A stretch of DNA of 64,000 nt, from the NCBI RefSeq assembly GCF_009695875.1, contig NZ_VUNC01000005.1:1-64000 (forward strand), in the 5' to 3' direction. The notes under the pieces are model-generated. The model was not told the origin of the DNA. It made no database searches and saw only the letters and a list, made by a program, of their open reading frames with translations. Position numbers and translations under genes: made by a program. This DNA comes from Olsenella porci. Lineage in GTDB: Bacteria; Actinomycetota; Coriobacteriia; Coriobacteriales; Atopobiaceae. Positions 23,009 to 33,088 of the stretch are shown one piece after another. Position 1 is the stretch's first letter; each line of letters opens with the position of its first letter.

Positions 23009-24031
23009 CTAAAGCGAGAAGAGCGCCCTCGCGTTATCCCAGAGCGCATCGTACGTGCGCTGGCGGGAGGCAATCCCAGCGTCCTCCCTCACCTGGGCGA
23101 GGCTTGCGGCGGAGAAGGCAACCATGGCCTCCTCGCACTCCTCCCCGCGCAGGGGGACGGGGGCCATGTAGGGCGAGTCCGTCTCCGAGAGAATCAGCCG
23201 CTCGGGGCACTCGACTGCCGCCTGTCGTACGTCGTCACTCGAGCGGAACGTCTCGGCGCCTCCAAAGGCGACGTGCGAGCCAAGCTCCACGAACGGGGCC
23301 ATGACCTCGGGGCCCTGCGTGAAGCAGTGCAGGTCGCAGCCGCGTCGCGGGACGCCCTCCTCCCGCAGGACGCGCTCGACAAGGGCGTGCGCCGAGGCCG
23401 CCTCGTCGTCCCGGGCGTCGCGAACGTGCAGCTCGACGGGTAGGTCACGCTCACGTGCCACGCGGAGCTGGTCGCGAAGGGCACATTCCTGGGCATCGAG
23501 TGGGACGTCAGAGTACGGGCCGAGGTCCACGCCTATCTCGCCTACGCCAACGCAGCGCGGGGAGTCGAGCAGGAGCGAGAGCCTCTCCCCCACCGACAGG
23601 TCGCCCAGATAGTCGACGGCCCCATACGGGTGGACCCCCGCGACGATCCACACGTTGTCGAGGAGCGGGGGCAGGCCGGGCCGGTCGGGGAACTCTGGCG
23701 GGACCAGTCCGATGGAGGCGTACCTGTCAAGCAATCCGCGGGCCTCATCCACCTTGGACTCGAACCAGTCCAGGAACCTCGGGACGTCCCGGACGTCGTC
23801 CGCCGGGTCGACCGGGACCACAAGGAGGCGCACCCCCGCGAGGGCGGCCCTTGCCAGGACGTTGGCCGCCTGGTGCTCGCGGAACACCGTGAGGTGCCCA
23901 TGGGTATCGGCAAGCGGCGCAAGGGGTGCGGGGAACTCCACGGCCCTGCCGCGCACGTCGTGGAACAGCGAGCCGTCCTCCCAGGTGAGCGCGTCGAGCT
24001 GGGAGGAGCTGAGGGAGTGCCTCCCGCTCAT
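23009..24031 (-). CDS. tatD: TatD-family metal-dependent hydrolase
   Basis: 340 residues. TIM-barrel metal ligands appear in order: DTHGHL (usual DxHxHL), GEIGVDL, the HVRDA and LHCFTQG histidines and SETDSPYM. TatD enzymes act as Mg-dependent 3'-5' exonucleases. The protein is about 80 residues longer than E. coli TatD because of an insert after the first metal motif (about residues 68-120). Its ATG overlaps the end of rsmA by four bases, so translation is coupled. Confidence 0.9.
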   Translation of the reverse strand: MSGRHSLSSSQLDALTWEDGSLFHDVRGRAVEFPAPLAPLADTHGHLTVFREHQAANVLARAALAGVRLLVVPVDPADDVRDVPRFLDWFESKVDEARGLLDRYASIGLVPPEFPDRPGLPPLLDNVWIVAGVHPYGAVDYLGDLSVGERLSLLLDSPRCVGVGEIGVDLGPYSDVPLDAQECALRDQLRVARERDLPVELHVRDARDDEAASAHALVERVLREEGVPRRGCDLHCFTQGPEVMAPFVELGSHVAFGGAETFRSSDDVRQAAVECPERLILSETDSPYMAPVPLRGEECEEAMVAFSAASLAQVREDAGIASRQRTYDALWDNARALFSL

Positions 24032-24957
24032 GCGAGCGCCCCCTCGCCGAGCTCGCGGGCAAGGTTCACAAAGTCCTCGGTGGAGAGGCGCTCGGCGCGC
24101 ACGGTCGGCTCGATGCCAACCCGTGCGAACGCCTCGTCGAGGGCGGCCTTGTCGAAGCCAGACGAGGACATGGAGTTGCGGATGGTCTTGCGGCGCTGCG
24201 CGAAGGCGGCATCGATCACGTGCGCGGTCGCCTCGAGCTGGCCAGGCGAGAGGGGCTCCCCCGTCTGCGGGTCAACGGCCGGCCTGCGGTCGATCCGCAC
24301 CACGGCGCTCTGCACGTGCGGGGGCGGGAGGAAGTTGCCCGGACCCACCTCAAAGCGCCCCGTGACCGTGCCGTACAGCCCAAGCTTGGCGGTGTAGGCA
24401 CCGTAGTCGCGCCCGCCCGGGGTCGCGGCGATGCGGTCGGCGACCTCTGCCTGCACCATCACGACCTCGCGGTGCACGTGGGGCATGGCCTGGAGCGTGC
24501 GCAGGATGATGGTGGCGGCGACCTGGTACGGGAGGTTGCTCACGAGCTTGGTTGGCCTTGGGGAGGGAAGGGGCCTGCCCAGCCGGGAGACCGCCTGGGC
24601 GAGGTCGTCCTCCCCCACCCCCAGGGCGTCGCCCATGAGGAGGGCGAACCGCTCAGAGTCGCGGGCGCAGGTGCTCTGGAGCACGGGCTCGAGCGACCGG
24701 TCCGCCTCCACCGAGCACACCGCACCCGCAAGCGGGAGCAGCGCCACGGTGAGGGTGCCGATGCCCGGCCCCACCTCAAAGACCACGTCGTCCTCGCCCA
24801 GCTCGGCGAGGTCCAGGATCGAGGCGATGACCGAGTCGCTCACCAGGAAGTTCTGGCCAAGCCGATGCTTGGCCCCATGGCCAAACTCCTCCAGCACCAG
24901 ACGGGTCTGGCGCGGGTTGGCGAGCCACGAGCAGGCCTTGTCGCCGGAGCCTGCCAC
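24028..24957 (-). CDS. rsmA: 16S rRNA dimethyladenosine transferase
   Basis: 309 residues. HRLGQNFLVSDSVIASI and VFEVGPGIGTLTVALLP are the KsgA/RsmA entry and SAM motifs, and VSNLPYQVAATIIL is motif IV. It dimethylates two adjacent adenines near the 3' end of 16S rRNA. The start is GTG at 24957, four bases after the metG stop, with AGAGGGAC upstream. The order metG-rsmA-tatD is a common bacterial cluster. Confidence 0.94.
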   Translation of the reverse strand: MAGSGDKACSWLANPRQTRLVLEEFGHGAKHRLGQNFLVSDSVIASILDLAELGEDDVVFEVGPGIGTLTVALLPLAGAVCSVEADRSLEPVLQSTCARDSERFALLMGDALGVGEDDLAQAVSRLGRPLPSPRPTKLVSNLPYQVAATIILRTLQAMPHVHREVVMVQAEVADRIAATPGGRDYGAYTAKLGLYGTVTGRFEVGPGNFLPPPHVQSAVVRIDRRPAVDPQTGEPLSPGQLEATAHVIDAAFAQRRKTIRNSMSSSGFDKAALDEAFARVGIEPTVRAERLSTEDFVNLARELGEGALA

Positions 24958-24961
24958 CGTG

Positions 24962-26572
24962 CTAGTCCCTCTTGGCCTGGAGACGGGGGAACAGCGCGTC
25001 TCCCTTGGTGACGGGGACGGAGGAGGCGAGGCCGCCCCACTGGCAGACGGCCGCGAGGTCGTCCGTCTGGGCCTCTCCACCAAGGCTCATGCGACGCAGG
25101 ACCTCCGCCGAGGTGCTGGGCATGAAGGGCGCCAGCAGGTGGGCGCAGATGCGGATGGACTCGAGCAGGTTGGTGATGATGTCCGCGAGCTCCTGCGCGC
25201 GTGCGGGATCCTTGGCGACTGCCCAGGGCGCGGAGTCCTCGATGTAGTGGTTGGCTGCGTGCACGAGCTCCATCACCACGTCCTTGGCTGCCACGTACTC
25301 GAGCTTGTCCATGTGCTCCGCGTAGCGCCCCTCGATGCCCAGGGCGATGCTGCGGAGCGGGTTGTCCCTCTCCGCCCAGCCGTCCGCGAGCGCTGGGGTC
25401 TTGCCATCAAAGTACTTGGCGCTCATGTTGAGGGAGCGGGACACCAGGTTGCCCCAGCTGTTGGCCAGGTCGGCGTTGTAGACCTGCTCCATGCGGTTGA
25501 AGCTGATGGCGCCGTCCTCGCCCGGCACGCAGTCGGTCATGAAGTAGTAGCGGTACCCCTCCACGCCCAGCATGTCGATGACCTCGCGCGGCGCGATGGC
25601 GTTGCCGCGCGACTTGGACATCTTCTCTCCCTTGCCGGTCTCCTCGTTGCGCACCATGAGGAAGCCGTGCGCAAAGACGTGCTCGGGCAGCGCCTCGTTA
25701 ATGGCCATGAGCATGGCGGGCCAGATGACGCAGTGGAAGCGGATGATGTCCTTGCCCACGATGTGGTACTGGGCCGGCCAGCGGCGGGCGAACTCTGCCT
25801 TGGCCTCGGGGGTGTCGACGCCATACCCAACGGCTGTCATGTAGTTGAGGAGGGCGTCAAACCACACGTAGGTGACGTGCTTGTCGTCGAACGGAACGGG
25901 GATGCCCCAGTCAAAGCTCGTGCGCGAGACCGAGAGGTCCTGGAGGCCACCCTCGACGAAGCTGCGGACCTCGTTCATGCGGAAGTCGGGCTGGACGAAG
26001 TCGGGATGCTCGTCGTACAGCTTGAGCAGGCGGTCCTGGAACGCGGAGAGCTTGAAGAAGTAGGACTCCTCCTGCACGCGCTCCAGGGGACGGCCGCAGT
26101 CGGGGCACAGGTGCTGGCCCTCGGTGTGGCGCTCCTCGTCTGCCTTCGAAACCTGGGTCTCGGTGAAGTAGGTCTCCTCGGGCACGCAGTACCAGCCGTC
26201 GTAGCTGCCCTTGTACAGGTATCCGGAATCCCTCATGCGATCCCACAGGTACTGCACCGCATGCACCTGGCGGGGCTCGGTGGTGCGGATGAAGTCGTCG
26301 TTGGAGATCTCGAGCTCGCGCCACAGGTCCTTGAAGAGCGGCGCCTGGCTGTCACACCACTCCTGCGGGGTCATGCCGTGGCTGCGCGCGGCCTCCTCCA
26401 CCTTCTCGCCGTGCTCGTCCATCCCCGTGAGGAACTTGACGTCGTACCCCGCGGCGCGGCGGTAGCGCGCCTGGACGTCGCAGAGGATCGTGGAGTAGGC
26501 AGTCCCCAGGTGGGGGGCTGCGTTGACGTAGTAGATGGGGGTGGTGATGAAGAAGGACGGCTTGTCGCTCAT
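24962..26572 (-). CDS. metG: Methionyl-tRNA synthetase
   Basis: 536 residues. TTPIYYVNAAPHLGTAYS holds the HIGH-type motif (HLGTAYS here) and EKMSKSRGNAI the KMSKS motif. The four-cysteine zinc knuckle is reduced to one CPDCG pair. There is no C-terminal tRNA-binding EMAP domain, so this is the short form. It charges tRNA-Met in the cytosol. ATG at 26572 follows CGGGAGA. The 155-base leader contains a GTACAA/TTGTAC hairpin near 26603-26623 but no recognisable T-box. Confidence 0.96.
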   Translation of the reverse strand: MSDKPSFFITTPIYYVNAAPHLGTAYSTILCDVQARYRRAAGYDVKFLTGMDEHGEKVEEAARSHGMTPQEWCDSQAPLFKDLWRELEISNDDFIRTTEPRQVHAVQYLWDRMRDSGYLYKGSYDGWYCVPEETYFTETQVSKADEERHTEGQHLCPDCGRPLERVQEESYFFKLSAFQDRLLKLYDEHPDFVQPDFRMNEVRSFVEGGLQDLSVSRTSFDWGIPVPFDDKHVTYVWFDALLNYMTAVGYGVDTPEAKAEFARRWPAQYHIVGKDIIRFHCVIWPAMLMAINEALPEHVFAHGFLMVRNEETGKGEKMSKSRGNAIAPREVIDMLGVEGYRYYFMTDCVPGEDGAISFNRMEQVYNADLANSWGNLVSRSLNMSAKYFDGKTPALADGWAERDNPLRSIALGIEGRYAEHMDKLEYVAAKDVVMELVHAANHYIEDSAPWAVAKDPARAQELADIITNLLESIRICAHLLAPFMPSTSAEVLRRMSLGGEAQTDDLAAVCQWGGLASSVPVTKGDALFPRLQAKRD

Positions 26573-26727
26573 GGGGTCTCCCGATTCCTGATGGCGGAAC
26601 GTACAACGGGGGCAATTGTACTCTGGGAGCGATGGAGACCCGCGGGAGGCGACTCCAATCGAAAAAACACCCACCGCACGACATGGTTTTGGCACCGGGG
26701 GAGAGGGGCGGGGCAACGGCAACGCAG

Positions 26728-27612
26728 CTAGGACCCGTTGGCAGCCCGGAGGACGCGCTCGTACACCTGGGCGCGTGGGACCCCATACCGCTTTGCGAGC
26801 GCCTTGGCGAGGGCACTCTTGGGCTCGCCGGACGCGAGACCCTGCGCGATCGCCTCCTCGAGTGTTGGGAGCTCGGCGGACGCCGACCGGGCGTCTCGAA
26901 GCTCGTCCGCCCCCGGCGGGGCTATGACGACCACGCACTCGCCTCGCAGCCCCTCGCGCTCCGCGACCTCGCGGGCAAGGGCTGGAGCAAAGTCGCGGAC
27001 GACTTCCTCGTGCAGCTTGGTGAGCTCGCGGACCAGGGCGACGCGGCGCGACGGCATGACCTCCGCCACGTTTGCGAGGGTCGCCGCGACCCTGTGGGGA
27101 GACTCGTACAGCACGATGGCGCCGGGAACCGCCGCCAGCTCCCCCAGGCGACGCACCTGGTCTCCCCTCCTGCGGGGGAGAAAGCCCTCGAAGAAGAAGT
27201 GCTCCATGGGGAGGCCCGACGCCACGAGGGCGCAGGTGACCGCGGACGGGCCGGGCACGACCTCGACGCGATGGCCGGCGTCCAGCGCCGCGTCGACCAG
27301 CTGCTGGCCTGGGTCGGACACGCCGGGCATGCCGGCATCGGAGGCAAATGCCACGCGAGCGCCCTCGCCCAGCAGGGAGAGGACCCTCTCCACGCGGTCG
27401 GCGATCACGTTCTGGTCGCACCGCTCCAGCGGCACCCGGATGTCAAAGTGGGAGAGGAGCCTGCCCGTGACGCGCGTGTCCTCGCACAGCAGGAGGTCCG
27501 CCTCCGCAAGCGTTCGCAGGGCACGCGGGGAGGCGTCGTCCAGGTTGCCGATAGGCGTCCCCACCATGGAGAGGAGTCCCGCGCCCCACGTGGCGCCGCC
27601 CTCCCCTAGCAC
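26728..27612 (-). CDS. rsmI: 16S rRNA 2'-O-ribose methyltransferase RsmI
   Basis: 294 residues. LLSMVGTPIGNLDD, LLCEDTRVT, SDAGMPGVSDPG and EVVPGPSAV are the RsmI/tetrapyrrole-methylase motifs. It methylates C1402 of 16S rRNA. I chose GTG at 27612 because it gives a complete first beta strand before TPIGNL. This start overlaps the last codons of the upstream GH5-like gene. ATG at 27567 would remove the strand. Confidence 0.9.
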   Translation of the reverse strand: MLGEGGATWGAGLLSMVGTPIGNLDDASPRALRTLAEADLLLCEDTRVTGRLLSHFDIRVPLERCDQNVIADRVERVLSLLGEGARVAFASDAGMPGVSDPGQQLVDAALDAGHRVEVVPGPSAVTCALVASGLPMEHFFFEGFLPRRRGDQVRRLGELAAVPGAIVLYESPHRVAATLANVAEVMPSRRVALVRELTKLHEEVVRDFAPALAREVAEREGLRGECVVVIAPPGADELRDARSASAELPTLEEAIAQGLASGEPKSALAKALAKRYGVPRAQVYERVLRAANGS

Positions 27613-28649
27613 AGCATCCCCCGCTCGAAGGTTGCGAGCGAGACGCGGGCGTCCCAGCCCGCGAGGCGCCCCTCTGTCTTCCAGGTCTGGAAGAACCAGG
27701 CGGGGCAGCCGGAGAACATGGAGATCTGCTCGGAGATGAAGACGCGCTCCAGGGCGATGCGCCCCTCGGGCGTGGTGGAGGAGTCGGCGAACGGCAGCGA
27801 CCCGGACCACTTGCCCACCATCACGGGAAGGCCACTGCGGCGCGCCTGGTCGAGCTCCTTGCGCGACCGGTCGGCGAGCTTGCGTATGGCGGTGGGCCCG
27901 ATGGAACCCACGTTGTCGAAGTAGCGGTACAGGTGGCAGTCGAGCCACGCGTTGTGGTAGCGACGCTGCGCCATGAAGCGCCCCCACGCGCCATGCTGCC
28001 CGGCATCGGGGACGATGACCAGCACGTCGTCCCCCGCGCAGGCGCGGATGCGGTCGTACGCGTCGCGGTAGTAGTTGCGCAGCACGTGGAGCGGGACGCC
28101 GTCGCTGAGCGTGAGGCCGCGCCGAACCTGCGGGTTGGGGTCGTCCGCGACCTCGATGCCCGCGAGCGCGGCACGCGTGCCGTAGCGGTCGCAGAGCATC
28201 CCGATGACATCGAGCATGTCCTCGCGATACGAGGCGAAGTCCCCGTGGTTGCGCACGAGCTCGCCCTCCGCCCCCCGCACGCCCGGGTTGATGCAGAGGT
28301 CGAGCACGATTTTGAGGCCAATCTCGTCCGCCCAATCAAAGGCGTCGTCCACCAGCTCGATGCAGCCGACGAAGGGACCGGGCGTGGGACCGTCGTCCCC
28401 AAAGACGTACCAGGGGACGGGGAGGCGCACTGCGTTGAACCCGCGCGAGGCGATCTGCAGGAAGTCCGACTGAGACATGAAGTCCGCGCGATGGGCGCGG
28501 ACGAGCCCCTGGTAGTCCTCGCGACCGATGGAGCTGACGAGTGCCGCCTCGTCGAGCACCCCGGAGTCGACGAAAAGCGAGGGGGTCACCCACGGCTCGA
28601 GCGTAAGCCAGCCCGTGAGGTTGACTCCGTGAAGCGGTCGCGCCGACAT
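27606..28649 (-). CDS. GH5-fold protein lacking both catalytic glutamates
   Basis: 347 residues. The barrel opens GVNLTGWLTLEPW and contains FNAVRLPVPWYVF, KIVLDLCINPG and DCHLYRYFDN, as in GH5 exo-beta-glucanases (GH5_9-like). The acid/base motif NEP appears as ADDPN at 168-172, and the nucleophile motif GEWS appears as GKWS at 279-282. Both glutamates are therefore replaced (Asp and Lys). Hydrolysis by the normal mechanism is unlikely; it may bind glucan or serve another role. There is no signal peptide. ATG at 28649 has AAAGGAG upstream. A TATACT box lies at 28694-28689 on the minus strand. Confidence 0.82.
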   Translation of the reverse strand: MSARPLHGVNLTGWLTLEPWVTPSLFVDSGVLDEAALVSSIGREDYQGLVRAHRADFMSQSDFLQIASRGFNAVRLPVPWYVFGDDGPTPGPFVGCIELVDDAFDWADEIGLKIVLDLCINPGVRGAEGELVRNHGDFASYREDMLDVIGMLCDRYGTRAALAGIEVADDPNPQVRRGLTLSDGVPLHVLRNYYRDAYDRIRACAGDDVLVIVPDAGQHGAWGRFMAQRRYHNAWLDCHLYRYFDNVGSIGPTAIRKLADRSRKELDQARRSGLPVMVGKWSGSLPFADSSTTPEGRIALERVFISEQISMFSGCPAWFFQTWKTEGRLAGWDARVSLATFERGMLC

Positions 28650-28864
28650 CGTCGCTCCTTTCATAGTGCGAGGTACGAGGTATTTTGCAGTATACCCTCG
28701 ACCCCGGACAATAGGTGCTTCGTGCCGCAAGCTGGCCAAGAGTGGCTGAAGGCGCTCAAGGCGGCAGGCCGCCGGCAACGGCATGCGAGACGGCCCCTTC
28801 TCCATGGGTTCGCTATCCTCTTCTGGGAGAATGGGGGAATCCGCATGCGAAGACGGGAGGGACC

Positions 28865-29278
28865 TTGGTTCGTGACATCGTGCGCTCGCGCATCCTGCTC
28901 GCCCGCTCCTCCCGGCAGGCAACCGCAGACGACCTGGCGATAGGCGCAGACCTCGCCGACACGCTCGCCGCCCACTCGGACGGCTGCGTGGGCATGGCGG
29001 CCAACATGATTGGGGAACGTGTGTGCATCATCGCGGTTCTCGACCGCAATGGAAGGCCACGCGTGATGTACAACCCCAGCATCGTCTGGCACGAGGGCCC
29101 CTATCAGACGGAGGAGGGCTGCCTCTGCCTTGAGGGAACCAGGCCGGCCACCAGGTGGCGCCGCATCGCCGTGGAGTACCAGGACTCGTCCATGCGGGCG
29201 AGGACGGGTCGGTTTGAGGGCCTTGAGGCCGAGGCGATTCAACACGAGATCGACCACTGCGACGGAGTGGTGATCTAG
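28865..29278 (+). CDS. def: Peptide deformylase, short form
   Basis: 137 residues. The three deformylase motifs are present but altered: GCVGMAANMIG (40-50) with Asn for the usual Gln, EEGCLCLEG (83-91) with the metal cysteine C86, and QHEIDH (126-131). It removes the formyl group from new N-terminal methionine. The TTG start at 28865 is chosen because GGGAGGGACC precedes it and no conserved sequence lies before. The lysozyme gene starts on its last stop-codon base. It may be a second, specialised deformylase. Confidence 0.85.
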   Translation: MVRDIVRSRILLARSSRQATADDLAIGADLADTLAAHSDGCVGMAANMIGERVCIIAVLDRNGRPRVMYNPSIVWHEGPYQTEEGCLCLEGTRPATRWRRIAVEYQDSSMRARTGRFEGLEAEAIQHEIDHCDGVVI

Positions 29279-30639
29279 TGACGCCACGCGACCAGGACAG
29301 GGACAGGCGACGCTCGTCCGGGACGCCCCGGGGGAGGTCGGCGGGCTCTCGCCCAAGGGGAGCCGCGCGCCCGTACGGCGAGCGCCAATCCTCCGGCGGG
29401 CGGGGCACCGACCGCTCCGAGGTCAGGGGCACCGCCCGTTCCGCCGCACGTCCATCGCGGAGGACTGCCACGCCCCGCGAGGCTCCGCGTAGGATTCGCG
29501 AGGAGCGGCCGCGTCCCCGTCCGACGCGCGCACCTGGAGAGCCCCGTCGCACGCAGCAGCGCCCCGAGCGCAGGAGGGAGCAGCCGTACGCGCGCAGGTC
29601 GAGCGAGGACCGCGCCATGCGCACGGCGAACGAGGCCATCGCAAACCAACGGCCCAACCAGAGGGAGCAGATGCGCCGCGAGCGCAGGAGGAAGCTCCTT
29701 CTCCCCATTGCCCTGGTCTCCGCGGCAATCGTCGCCGTGGTTGCGCTGGCCGTGACACATCCCTCGCTCCTGGCGCCACAGGACGATACGTTGGTCGAGG
29801 ACTCCTCTGCACAGGATCAGAACGCGGACATCTCGCAGCCCAACGGCCTCGTTGGCCTGCAGTTTGCAGCCGCAGACAGCCCGACCCTTCTGAAGCAGCC
29901 GTACGACTGGACCAACCTGGACACCAGCGGCTCCTACTACAGCTACGCCGTGGACGGAAGCACCAAGTCGGTTCTGGGCATCGACGTGAGCCAGCATCAG
30001 GGTGACATCGACTGGGAGAAGGTCAAGGCCGCCGGAATACAGTTTGTGTACCTCCGCGTGGGCTACCGGGAGTCGATTGGGGCAAAGGTGCGCGCCGACT
30101 CCAACTTCAAGCAGAACCTGAGCGACGCCAAGGCGGCGGGGCTCAAGGTGGGCGTGTACTTCTACTCCCAGGCAACAACCGAGGAGGAGGCCCGCGAGGA
30201 GGCGGACCTCACGCTCCAGATGCTCGATGGGACATCGCTCGACTATCCCGTCGCCTTCGACTTTGAGCCGACCAACGACTCCAGCGGCACGAGGGTCTCG
30301 AACCTCTCCGCCGACCAGATGACGAAGGTGGCAAAGGCGTTTTGCAACAGGATCTGGAGCAGCGGCTACTCAACGATCATCTACGGCAACTCCGCGGACC
30401 TGTCGCTGTACAACCTAGGCGACCTCGCCAAGTATGGCTTCTGGTACGCGGAGTACGGCTCGCATCCCACGATGGACCTCAACTTTGTGCTGTGGCAGTA
30501 CACCGACGAGGGAACCGTGGACGGCATCGAGGGCAACGTCGACATCGACCTGGACCTCTCCGCCGCCAATGACGCGATCTCGGTCACCAGGAGCGGCGAG
30601 GACGCGAAGGCGGCACCCTCGTCGTCCGGCAGCGACTAG
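29278..30639 (+). CDS. Membrane-anchored GH25 lysozyme with Arg-rich tail
   Basis: 453 residues. Residues 1-138 are an Arg/Pro-rich, strongly basic cytoplasmic tail with almost no hydrophobic residues. One membrane segment follows (about 140-160) and then a linker. The GH25 barrel runs from GIDVSQHQGDIDW (234) to the end, with catalytic D236 and the DFE pair D328/E330. GH25 enzymes cut the beta-1,4 bond after N-acetylmuramic acid in peptidoglycan. The start is GTG, overlapping the deformylase stop. The basic tail could bind nucleic acid or anionic lipid; I see no match to a known domain. Confidence 0.9.
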   Translation: MTPRDQDRDRRRSSGTPRGRSAGSRPRGAARPYGERQSSGGRGTDRSEVRGTARSAARPSRRTATPREAPRRIREERPRPRPTRAPGEPRRTQQRPERRREQPYARRSSEDRAMRTANEAIANQRPNQREQMRRERRRKLLLPIALVSAAIVAVVALAVTHPSLLAPQDDTLVEDSSAQDQNADISQPNGLVGLQFAAADSPTLLKQPYDWTNLDTSGSYYSYAVDGSTKSVLGIDVSQHQGDIDWEKVKAAGIQFVYLRVGYRESIGAKVRADSNFKQNLSDAKAAGLKVGVYFYSQATTEEEAREEADLTLQMLDGTSLDYPVAFDFEPTNDSSGTRVSNLSADQMTKVAKAFCNRIWSSGYSTIIYGNSADLSLYNLGDLAKYGFWYAEYGSHPTMDLNFVLWQYTDEGTVDGIEGNVDIDLDLSAANDAISVTRSGEDAKAAPSSSGSD

Positions 30640-30717: not shown

Positions 30718-31836
30718 CTACGCCAGGTCCCGGGCCGCCCTGCGGAGCCACGATGTGACCTCGATGTGCTGTGGGCAGGTGCCCTCGCAGCGACGGCACC
30801 CTATGCAGTCCCCTGCCCCACCATGTCCGCGAACTGCCTCCGCGTACTCCTTGCGCGCACGCGTGGGATTGCCCCACAGGAGCTCCTGGTTCAAGGCCTC
30901 GAACACGTCTGGGATGGGGATGTCCCTGGGGCACCCCTCCACGCAGTAGCGGCAGGCAGTGCAGGGAACCTGCTCCACGCCCGCAAGCGCCTGCCGGGCG
31001 CGCTCAACCGCCTCGCGCTCCCCCTGGTCGAGTGGGCGGAAGTCCCCCATGTAACCCACGTTGTCCCTCACCTGGTCCAGCGTGGACATGCCGCTCAGGA
31101 CGGTCATGACGCCGTCGAGCGAGGCAGCGAAGCGAATGGCCCAGCTGGCTAGGGACGCGTCGGGATTGGCATGGCGAAGGATCTGCGCAACCTCCCTCGG
31201 AGGGTTGGCGAGCCTGCCGCCCTTGACGGGCTCCATGATCACCACCGGCTTGCCGTGGCTGCGGGCCACCTCGTAGTTCTCGCGCGAGAAGACCGTGGGG
31301 CTCTCCCAGTCGGCGTAGTTGATCTGCAGCTGCACGAAGTCGACCTCCGGATGGAGGGTGAGCAGCTCGTCCAGCATCTGCGGCGAGTCGTGGAACGAGA
31401 ACCCAACGTGACGGACGACTCCGCGCTTCTTCTGCTCGCGTACGAAGTCCCAGATGCCGTAGCGGTCGTAGTTATCGCGGTTGGACGACTGGAGCGCGTG
31501 GAGCAGGTAGAAATCGAGGTAGCCCGCGCCCGTGCGACGGAGCGACTCTTGGAGCTGCGCCTTGCACGTCTTGGCGTCTACGCACCCCAGGCGCGCGTTG
31601 ATCTTGCTCGCCAGCGTGAACGAGTCACGGGGATGGCGCTCCACCAGGGCCTTCCTTGTCGCCTCCTCGGAGCCCTCGTACACGTACGCCGTGTCAAAGT
31701 AGGTGAGCCCGGCATCGAGGAACATGTCGACCATCTGGGAGGTCTGCTCCACGTCGATCTTGCCGCTCTTGAGCCTTGGAAGTCGCATGAGCCCAAACCC
31801 CAGCTTGGGCGTGTTGGTCAGGGCGTCACCAGACAT
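30718..31836 (-). CDS. Aldo/keto reductase with two [4Fe-4S] clusters
   Basis: 372 residues. The barrel carries TYFDTAYVYEGSEE, LDFYLLHAL and the catalytic tetrad positions Asp/Tyr/Lys/His (D and Y in the first motif). The C-terminus (about 295-372) has CTACRYCVEGCP and CIGCRRCEGTCP, each a CxxCxxCxxxCP ferredoxin-type motif. The ferredoxin part suggests electrons come from or go to iron-sulfur carriers. ATG at 31836 follows GGGGGAGG. It lies between the two GH25 genes on the opposite strand. Confidence 0.9.
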   Translation of the reverse strand: MSGDALTNTPKLGFGLMRLPRLKSGKIDVEQTSQMVDMFLDAGLTYFDTAYVYEGSEEATRKALVERHPRDSFTLASKINARLGCVDAKTCKAQLQESLRRTGAGYLDFYLLHALQSSNRDNYDRYGIWDFVREQKKRGVVRHVGFSFHDSPQMLDELLTLHPEVDFVQLQINYADWESPTVFSRENYEVARSHGKPVVIMEPVKGGRLANPPREVAQILRHANPDASLASWAIRFAASLDGVMTVLSGMSTLDQVRDNVGYMGDFRPLDQGEREAVERARQALAGVEQVPCTACRYCVEGCPRDIPIPDVFEALNQELLWGNPTRARKEYAEAVRGHGGAGDCIGCRRCEGTCPQHIEVTSWLRRAARDLA

Positions 31837-31990
31837 CGTTCCTCCCCCACTCTTGGCCTCGGGGCCTTCCCCGCACGAGGACATGATACGTCGCACCGTC
31901 CCGAGGAGGTGACGCGGAGGGCAGGGGACGCAGGCCGCGGCGCCCCGCCATCGTGGTATACGTAGTCAGACGCGAGCGAGGGAGAGGCCC

Positions 31991-33088
31991 ATGGCAGCCA
32001 AGGTCAGGCGGGGAGGCAAGGCGAAGGCCGGCGCAGCGGGGCATGGGGCCTCCTCGTCTGGCTCATCGAAGGGCCCGCAGGCCTCGAAGGGTACAAAGAA
32101 GGCCACGACCGGCGGCGGGAGGCACTCGTCCAAGCACGCCGGCAAGACGACCTCGCACGGCACCAAGACGGCACCAAAGAAGAAGGCGTCACGCGGGTCC
32201 TCGCATGCTGGCAGGCACTCCGCACGACCGTCGGGAGCCGCCCGAATCATCGGGCGCATCATGATAATCGCCGCCATCGCCTGCATCGTGGTCCTGGCGG
32301 TCTCCAGGGTCCTGGTCTCCGAATCCTCCGCCGGCAGCTTCGCCGGCTCGGCCCTCCCCAGCTCGTCGGTGGCCTATACCAACCCCTTCGACTGGTCCAG
32401 CCTCTCGTTTGGCCTGGACGGCCGGCCGCGCTACGTGGTGGACGGCGTGACCGAGAGCCGCGTGGGCATCGACGTCTCCGAGCACCAGGGAGACATCGAC
32501 TGGGGGTCGGTGAGGGCAGACGGGATCGGCTTTGCCTTCGTGCGCGTGGGCTACCGCGGATCGAGCAACGGCACCATCGTGGAGGACGCCAAGTTCGAGC
32601 AGAACGTGGCGGGTGCGCAGGCGGCGGGCGTGGAGTTGGGCGCATACTTCTACTCGCAGGCAACGACCGAGGCCGAGGCCGTCGAGGAGGCCCAGTACGT
32701 GCTGCAGAAGCTGCGGGGCGTGTCCCTCTCGTACCCCGTCGCCTTTGACTACGAGCCCACGGGCAACCAGGGGTCGCGCATCTACACCCTGTCCAAGGAC
32801 CAGATGCGCGCCGTTGCCGACGCCTTCTGCCAGACGATCGAGGCCAGCGGGCGCACGGCGATCGTATACGGGAACCAGTCGGACCTCGCCCGGATGGACG
32901 CGGCATCCCTCTACACGTACGGGTACTGGTATGCCTCGTACACCTCTGCGCCCACGCTCGACATGGCGTTCGCCATCTGGCAGTACGCGTCCACGGGCCA
33001 GGTGGCGGGCATCTCGACCTCGGTGGACATGGACCTCGATCTGTCGCGTCCCCTCGCAGAGGGGCTCGCCGCGGCGTCCTCGTCGTAG
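31991..33088 (+). CDS. Membrane-anchored GH25 lysozyme with Lys/Ser-rich tail
   Basis: 365 residues and a paralogue of the GH25 protein at 29278. Residues 1-85 are a Lys/Ser/Gly/Ala-rich basic tail, with one membrane segment at about 88-108. The barrel starts at GIDVSEHQGDIDW (159) with D161 and the DYE pair D253/E255. The two share the block YFYSQATTE and the ending VDMDLDLS/VDIDLDLS. GGGAGAGG lies upstream of the ATG. Probably peptidoglycan remodelling at the membrane surface. Confidence 0.9.
   Translation: MAAKVRRGGKAKAGAAGHGASSSGSSKGPQASKGTKKATTGGGRHSSKHAGKTTSHGTKTAPKKKASRGSSHAGRHSARPSGAARIIGRIMIIAAIACIVVLAVSRVLVSESSAGSFAGSALPSSSVAYTNPFDWSSLSFGLDGRPRYVVDGVTESRVGIDVSEHQGDIDWGSVRADGIGFAFVRVGYRGSSNGTIVEDAKFEQNVAGAQAAGVELGAYFYSQATTEAEAVEEAQYVLQKLRGVSLSYPVAFDYEPTGNQGSRIYTLSKDQMRAVADAFCQTIEASGRTAIVYGNQSDLARMDAASLYTYGYWYASYTSAPTLDMAFAIWQYASTGQVAGISTSVDMDLDLSRPLAEGLAAASSS

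Follow-up and report, generated by a model that had tools for sequence, protein, structure and literature searches.

The gene directly upstream of rsmI in Olsenella porci encodes a GH5 barrel in which five of the eight canonical active-site residues are replaced, and this gene (psGH5) is a single-copy core gene of two families of gut bacteria, where it is maintained by strong purifying selection and is not a relic. We give about even weight, for the whole of it, to the explanation that psGH5 derived from a GH5_9 exo-β-1,3-glucanase before Atopobiaceae and Coriobacteriaceae split and is now a cytosolic pseudoenzyme, a binding or regulatory partner that does not hydrolyse glycosides. GH5_9 is the CAZy subfamily name of these glucanases. 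The gene is single-copy in its genome (genome search) and intact in the window, the 64,000-nucleotide stretch of DNA analysed (Table 1); an intact gene with a strong ribosome site, as the earlier note had it, is what the 347-aa ORF and the AAAGGAG five bases before its ATG confirm. A Pfam scan finds one domain (PF00150, Cellulase/GH5, 40.7 bits against a cutoff of 23.5), an NCBIfam search gave no family matching psGH5, and a description of the family was not found in the open-access literature searched. Because only six residues lie ahead of β1, leaving by inspection no room for a signal peptide, the protein is presumably cytosolic.

Table 1. Features in and around psGH5, in window coordinates.
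Feature	Position	Strand	Description
psGH5	27606..28649	(-)	GH5_9-derived pseudo-glycoside hydrolase (putative), 347 aa, without signal peptide; ATG at 28649, stop at 27606-27608
Shine-Dalgarno of psGH5	28655..28661	(-)	AAAGGAG, 5 nt before ATG; read from sequence
C119 of psGH5	28293..28295	(-)	Replaces catalytic-pocket His (CaExg H135); His in 0/117 orthologues
D169-D170 of psGH5	28140..28145	(-)	Replace Asn-Glu (acid/base; CaExg N191-E192); D169 at 28143-28145 (GAC), D170 at 28140-28142 (GAC)
K280 of psGH5	27810..27812	(-)	Replaces nucleophile Glu (CaExg E292); AAG
Q321 of psGH5	27687..27689	(-)	Replaces -1 subsite platform Trp (CaExg W363); Trp in 0/117 orthologues
rsmI	26728..27567	(-)	16S rRNA (cytidine1402-2'-O)-methyltransferase; TIGR00096, 218 bits against cutoff 168; 38 bp after psGH5
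metG	24962..26620	(-)	Methionyl-tRNA synthetase; NF008900, 642 bits; start approximate
ksgA/rsmA	24028..24951	(-)	16S rRNA dimethyltransferase; TIGR00755, 218 bits; start approximate
tatD-family nuclease	23009..24031	(-)	TIGR00010, 123 bits, below cutoff
Peptide deformylase-like gene	28715-29278	(+)	Divergent upstream neighbour of psGH5; PRK09218 (NCBIfam), 160.6 bits against cutoff 162
GH25-like lysozyme gene	29278-30639	(+)	Assigned by motif; long basic N-terminal stretch
Aldo/keto reductase	30718-31896	(-)	Ferredoxin-like Cys-rich C-terminal part; lies between the two GH25-like genes
GH25-like lysozyme gene	31991-33088	(+)	Assigned by motif; long basic N-terminal stretch

An AlphaFold2 model of psGH5, with an alignment of 55 orthologues as input, is a complete (β/α)8 barrel (pLDDT 91, pTM 0.91). 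The nearest folds in the PDB are all GH5_9 exo-β-1,3-glucanases (6ZB8/6ZB9, Z 39; CaExg, AoBgl and ScExg, Z 35–36), which are the closest solved proteins by sequence too. The acid/base motif reads VADDP and the nucleophile motif VGKWS. Aligned to 6ZB9, D169/D170 fall on the N and E of NEP (E167), and E295, the nucleophile, is matched by K280; in the model these residues sit at the ends of β4 and β7. The GH5 active site of Candida albicans Exg (CaExg) is made up of eight residues: R92, H135, N191, E192, H253, Y255, E292 and W363 (PMC10304600). At the matching positions psGH5 has R75, C119, D169, D170, H239, Y241, K280 and Q321, keeping three (R75, H239 and Y241) and replacing five (C119, D169, D170, K280 and Q321), and this column matching agrees with the strand-end positions in the model. 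The earlier note had seen replacement of both catalytic glutamates; D170 and K280 bear this out, and the loss goes further than it claimed.

Set against active GH5_9 enzymes, psGH5 thus has the GH5 domain and the equivalents of R92, H253 and Y255, and lacks the acid/base Glu, the nucleophile Glu, the pocket His and the platform Trp. Because a lysine (K280) cannot serve as the glycosyl nucleophile, the side chain of D170 is shorter than that of Glu by one methylene, and the platform and pocket His are gone, psGH5 is probably devoid of glycosidase activity. Both Pfam and fold are plainly GH5, as they would be for an ordinary active GH5_9 glucanase whose motifs had been misaligned or misassembled, but that reading is barely credible and is refuted by the GKW/GEW and ADDP/NEP blocks, which align unambiguously, and by dozens of independent assemblies, from independent isolates, that carry identical substitutions. 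Alignment and orthologues agree in ruling out a misaligned motif or a substitute glutamate, E18 and E166 being ancestral.

Whole-genome searches found psGH5 orthologues in 133 of 140 Atopobiaceae genomes (99 of the 101 good ones) and in 47 sampled genomes of the same order beyond Atopobiaceae, all from one second family; none of the remaining families sampled in the order has it. We name this second family Coriobacteriaceae from two Collinsella loci (L058 and L059) that nest in the clade of family f10 in the tree. A profile run against 296 genomes of the phylum gave no orthologue outside these two families, and the 64 psGH5 loci in one genome-collection scan were all from Atopobiaceae/Coriobacteriales bins or Collinsella. 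One Coriobacteriaceae bin with its own copy also holds an Atopobiaceae-type psGH5–rsmI pair on a small extra contig (L083, G268:C124:522-1556), which is probably contamination. A few genomes hold a second GH5_9 gene, roughly 28–36% identical to psGH5. These coriobacterial paralogues (L107–L125) share its domain and often its genomes, but differ in having intact catalytic motifs (LHTxP, NEP, GEW and HxY in 18/18; the platform Trp in 17/18, with Phe in the remaining one), in forming one separate clade (support 100) and in their patchy distribution. In one of them, L119 (G072:C27), the active-type gene is broken by a single in-frame TAG.

Neither the pocket His119 nor the platform Trp321 occurs in any of 117 distinct psGH5 orthologues. 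D169, D170 and K280 are themselves not strictly conserved, so the expectation that orthologues would keep them holds only in the sense that no orthologue has the complete catalytic set. Orthologues with the glutamates, which the earlier note had said would speak against it, do exist in part: basal ones hold one or both (both in 16/117, all without His119 and Trp321), and just three (L057/L127 and L141) combine Asn with the two glutamates, His and Trp still missing. Coriobacteriaceae have D169 followed by S/T/A170 and retain E280 in 21/22 sequences; among Atopobiaceae, position 280 is E in 23/95 and, in a large clade, K (50), A (15), S (4) or T (3). On a tree from which the catalytic columns had been left out, Atopobiaceae show a single loss of E280, placed at the base of an Olsenella-like clade (52 rows, starred), and one Coriobacteriaceae genome shows another. 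Position 119 changes 28 times and position 170 26 times on this tree (median site 16), and N10, W14, W20, R75, W80, D237, W281, W318, W323 and K324 never change, which together indicate that the catalytic centre has been released and the barrel frame kept. As read from the sequences, catalytic decay is stepwise: pocket His and platform Trp went everywhere, then the acid/base in Coriobacteriaceae or the nucleophile in Olsenella-like Atopobiaceae. A168-D169 accompanies K280 in 50/50 sequences, which may hint at a buried salt bridge of K280 with D169, with only three independent pairs in a tree-based coupling test.

These counts bear on the possibility that psGH5 is an enzyme of altered chemistry, one that in Coriobacteriaceae and basal Atopobiaceae might attack activated substrates with its nucleophile alone and in Olsenella-like members might run some other reaction through K280/D169/D170. 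The frequent E280 and the 16 sequences with both glutamates speak for it, as does myrosinase, a retaining glycosidase without acid/base. Pseudoenzymes with migrated catalytic residues also exist (PMC10211241). However, positions 119, 170 and 280 have no residue set common to the clade, K280 itself gives way to A, S or T within it, and E18 and E166 are ancestral and found in active enzymes as well, so that no migrated glutamate is seen; we consider altered chemistry distinctly unlikely.

Selection on the gene is strong. In close K280 pairs omega is 0.024–0.06, against 0.07–0.20 for RsmI in the same pairs; it is 0.04 in an A280 pair and about 0.1–0.2 in Coriobacteriaceae. These values come from close pairs only, since NG86 dS saturates at larger distance in this high-GC set and overall medians are uninformative. 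No frameshift or stop was present in the full-length psGH5 loci checked. A recent pseudogene is ruled out by omega and by the universality of the gene. By definition a pseudoenzyme has lost conserved catalytic motifs (PMC10211241), and psGH5 has lost its motif relative to active homologues in a gene under selection. That the loss is ancient, common to the clade and kept under purifying selection lends good support to the part of the earlier proposal that saw a conserved, non-hydrolytic role.

Where constraint now lies was mapped by secondary structure and column entropy, with the active paralogues, which come from another GH5_9 lineage, as reference. Relative to them, the β3–α3 substrate loop of psGH5 is loosened (entropy 2.38 versus 0.59, +1.79), whereas helix α7 is tightened (0.91 versus 1.82, −0.91), as is the β8 loop (lower by 0.69); R191 and R195 on helix α4 are among the sites that gained constraint. 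R302, Q308 and WKT of the conserved α7/β8 region are shared with fungal GH5_9 enzymes, and part of this conservation may be structural. This pattern would match a newly acquired interaction surface more closely than a pocket for sugars.

The carbohydrate-binding half of the earlier proposal finds no such support: the −1 platform Trp, the pocket His, Asn146/Phe144 and the QNGFDN loop are lost or vary freely, and binding of β-glucans is further undercut by the missing signal peptide and by neighbours that serve rRNA and tRNA modification, not glycan use. In a broader form, psGH5 would be a cytosolic binder or sensor of a carbohydrate or a sugar-phosphate/nucleoside, its old pocket holding an uncleaved ligand whose state regulates a partner. 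The clade shows no change at pocket-rim residues N10, W14, W20, R75, W80, D237, W281 and W323 and hardly any at H239, but many rim residues double as barrel structure, the Asn146/Phe144 loop is lost clade-wide with the Trp and His and ranks with the most variable regions, one sub-clade has D in place of Y241, and no glycan-use genes are linked to psGH5. We hold this to be unlikely, yet worth serious weight.

The conserved features now lie outside the sugar subsite, and it is for this reason that we propose a scaffold or regulator. psGH5 would be made together with RsmI, would work by binding protein or RNA, and would act in late 30S maturation or translation; the surface used would comprise helix α7, β8 and its following loop, and the Arg positions of helix α4, rather than the sugar subsite. 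Against this, the pocket-frame residues R75, E166, D237, H239 and W281 persist, which is compatible with a ligand pocket. The likeliest candidate for its client is RsmI or the 30S subunit, which we guess from the arrangement of the genes.

That gene order is constant. Wherever a locus is long enough to judge (107/107), the gene directly downstream of psGH5, in the same orientation, is rsmI, at a median distance of 35 bp; metG closely trails rsmI in only 46/84, which makes the psGH5–rsmI link the tighter of the two. ricT and/or queD lie directly upstream of psGH5 in 40/92 loci, and ancestral Atopobiaceae probably had the arrangement holB-ricT-queD-psGH5-rsmI-metG-ksgA-tatD, presumably a translation and RNA-modification operon. 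The substrate of RsmI is the assembled 30S (PMC5053481). One Atopobiaceae genus (g31, L147–L150) has no psGH5, and its ricT-queD ends 30–150 bp before rsmI; since its RsmI nests within the Atopobiaceae clade (95, starred), this absence is a secondary loss. RsmI therefore does not need psGH5, which is dispensable in at least one lineage, and all other families of the order likewise have rsmI without psGH5. Gene order alone is not interaction. That a former β-glucanase was recruited in two families as a dedicated partner of RsmI, or of the 30S decoding region, a ribosome-maturation factor with a glycosidase fold, is in our estimate rather improbable.

The same adjacency, with its short gaps, would fit translational coupling, and psGH5 could on that account be a decaying relic held only by its linkage to rsmI, through coupling or promoter supply. 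The open reading frames and the omega values below those of RsmI largely refute this, and in g31 the loss of psGH5 joined ricT-queD to rsmI, which was itself retained; we regard a relic as highly improbable.

As a maintained pseudoenzyme, psGH5 stands close to the GH5_9 enzymes CaExg (1CZ1/3N9K), ScExg1 (1H4P), AoBgl (8Z2W) and a moose-rumen protein (6ZB9) at Z 35–39 and 24–31% identity, sharing their barrel frame, the WKT..WD C-terminal motif and the R92/H253/Y255 equivalents. It differs from them in having lost H135, N191, E192, E292, W363 and the QNGFDN loop with Phe144, in being cytosolic by inspection and in its place in an RNA-modification operon. Glycosidase folds have yielded other pseudoenzymes, among them Klotho (GH1) and YKL-40 and narbonin (GH18). 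Like these and the beetle GH28 pseudoenzymes (PMC6549527), psGH5 keeps the fold without the catalytic residues and may have gained a new binding role. All of those are eukaryotic and mostly secreted, whereas psGH5 is bacterial, probably cytosolic, a single-copy family-core gene and derived from GH5.

Bacteria that carry psGH5 (Olsenella, Atopobium, Lancefieldella and Collinsella) are common inhabitants of the gut, mouth and rumen. Pfam-based annotation calls the protein a cellulase, so that a probable non-enzyme is counted among their CAZymes. Successive stages of catalytic decay survive within the clade and can be set against the active paralogues, which serve as controls; the link to rsmI offers a directly testable hypothesis on function.

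Two neighbours in the window have unusual features of their own. The TatD-family protein is 340 aa long, with about 100 extra N-terminal residues. The deformylase-like gene has GMAANMIG in place of the usual GxGxAAxQ and keeps EGCLCLEG and HEIDH, and may encode an atypical deformylase.
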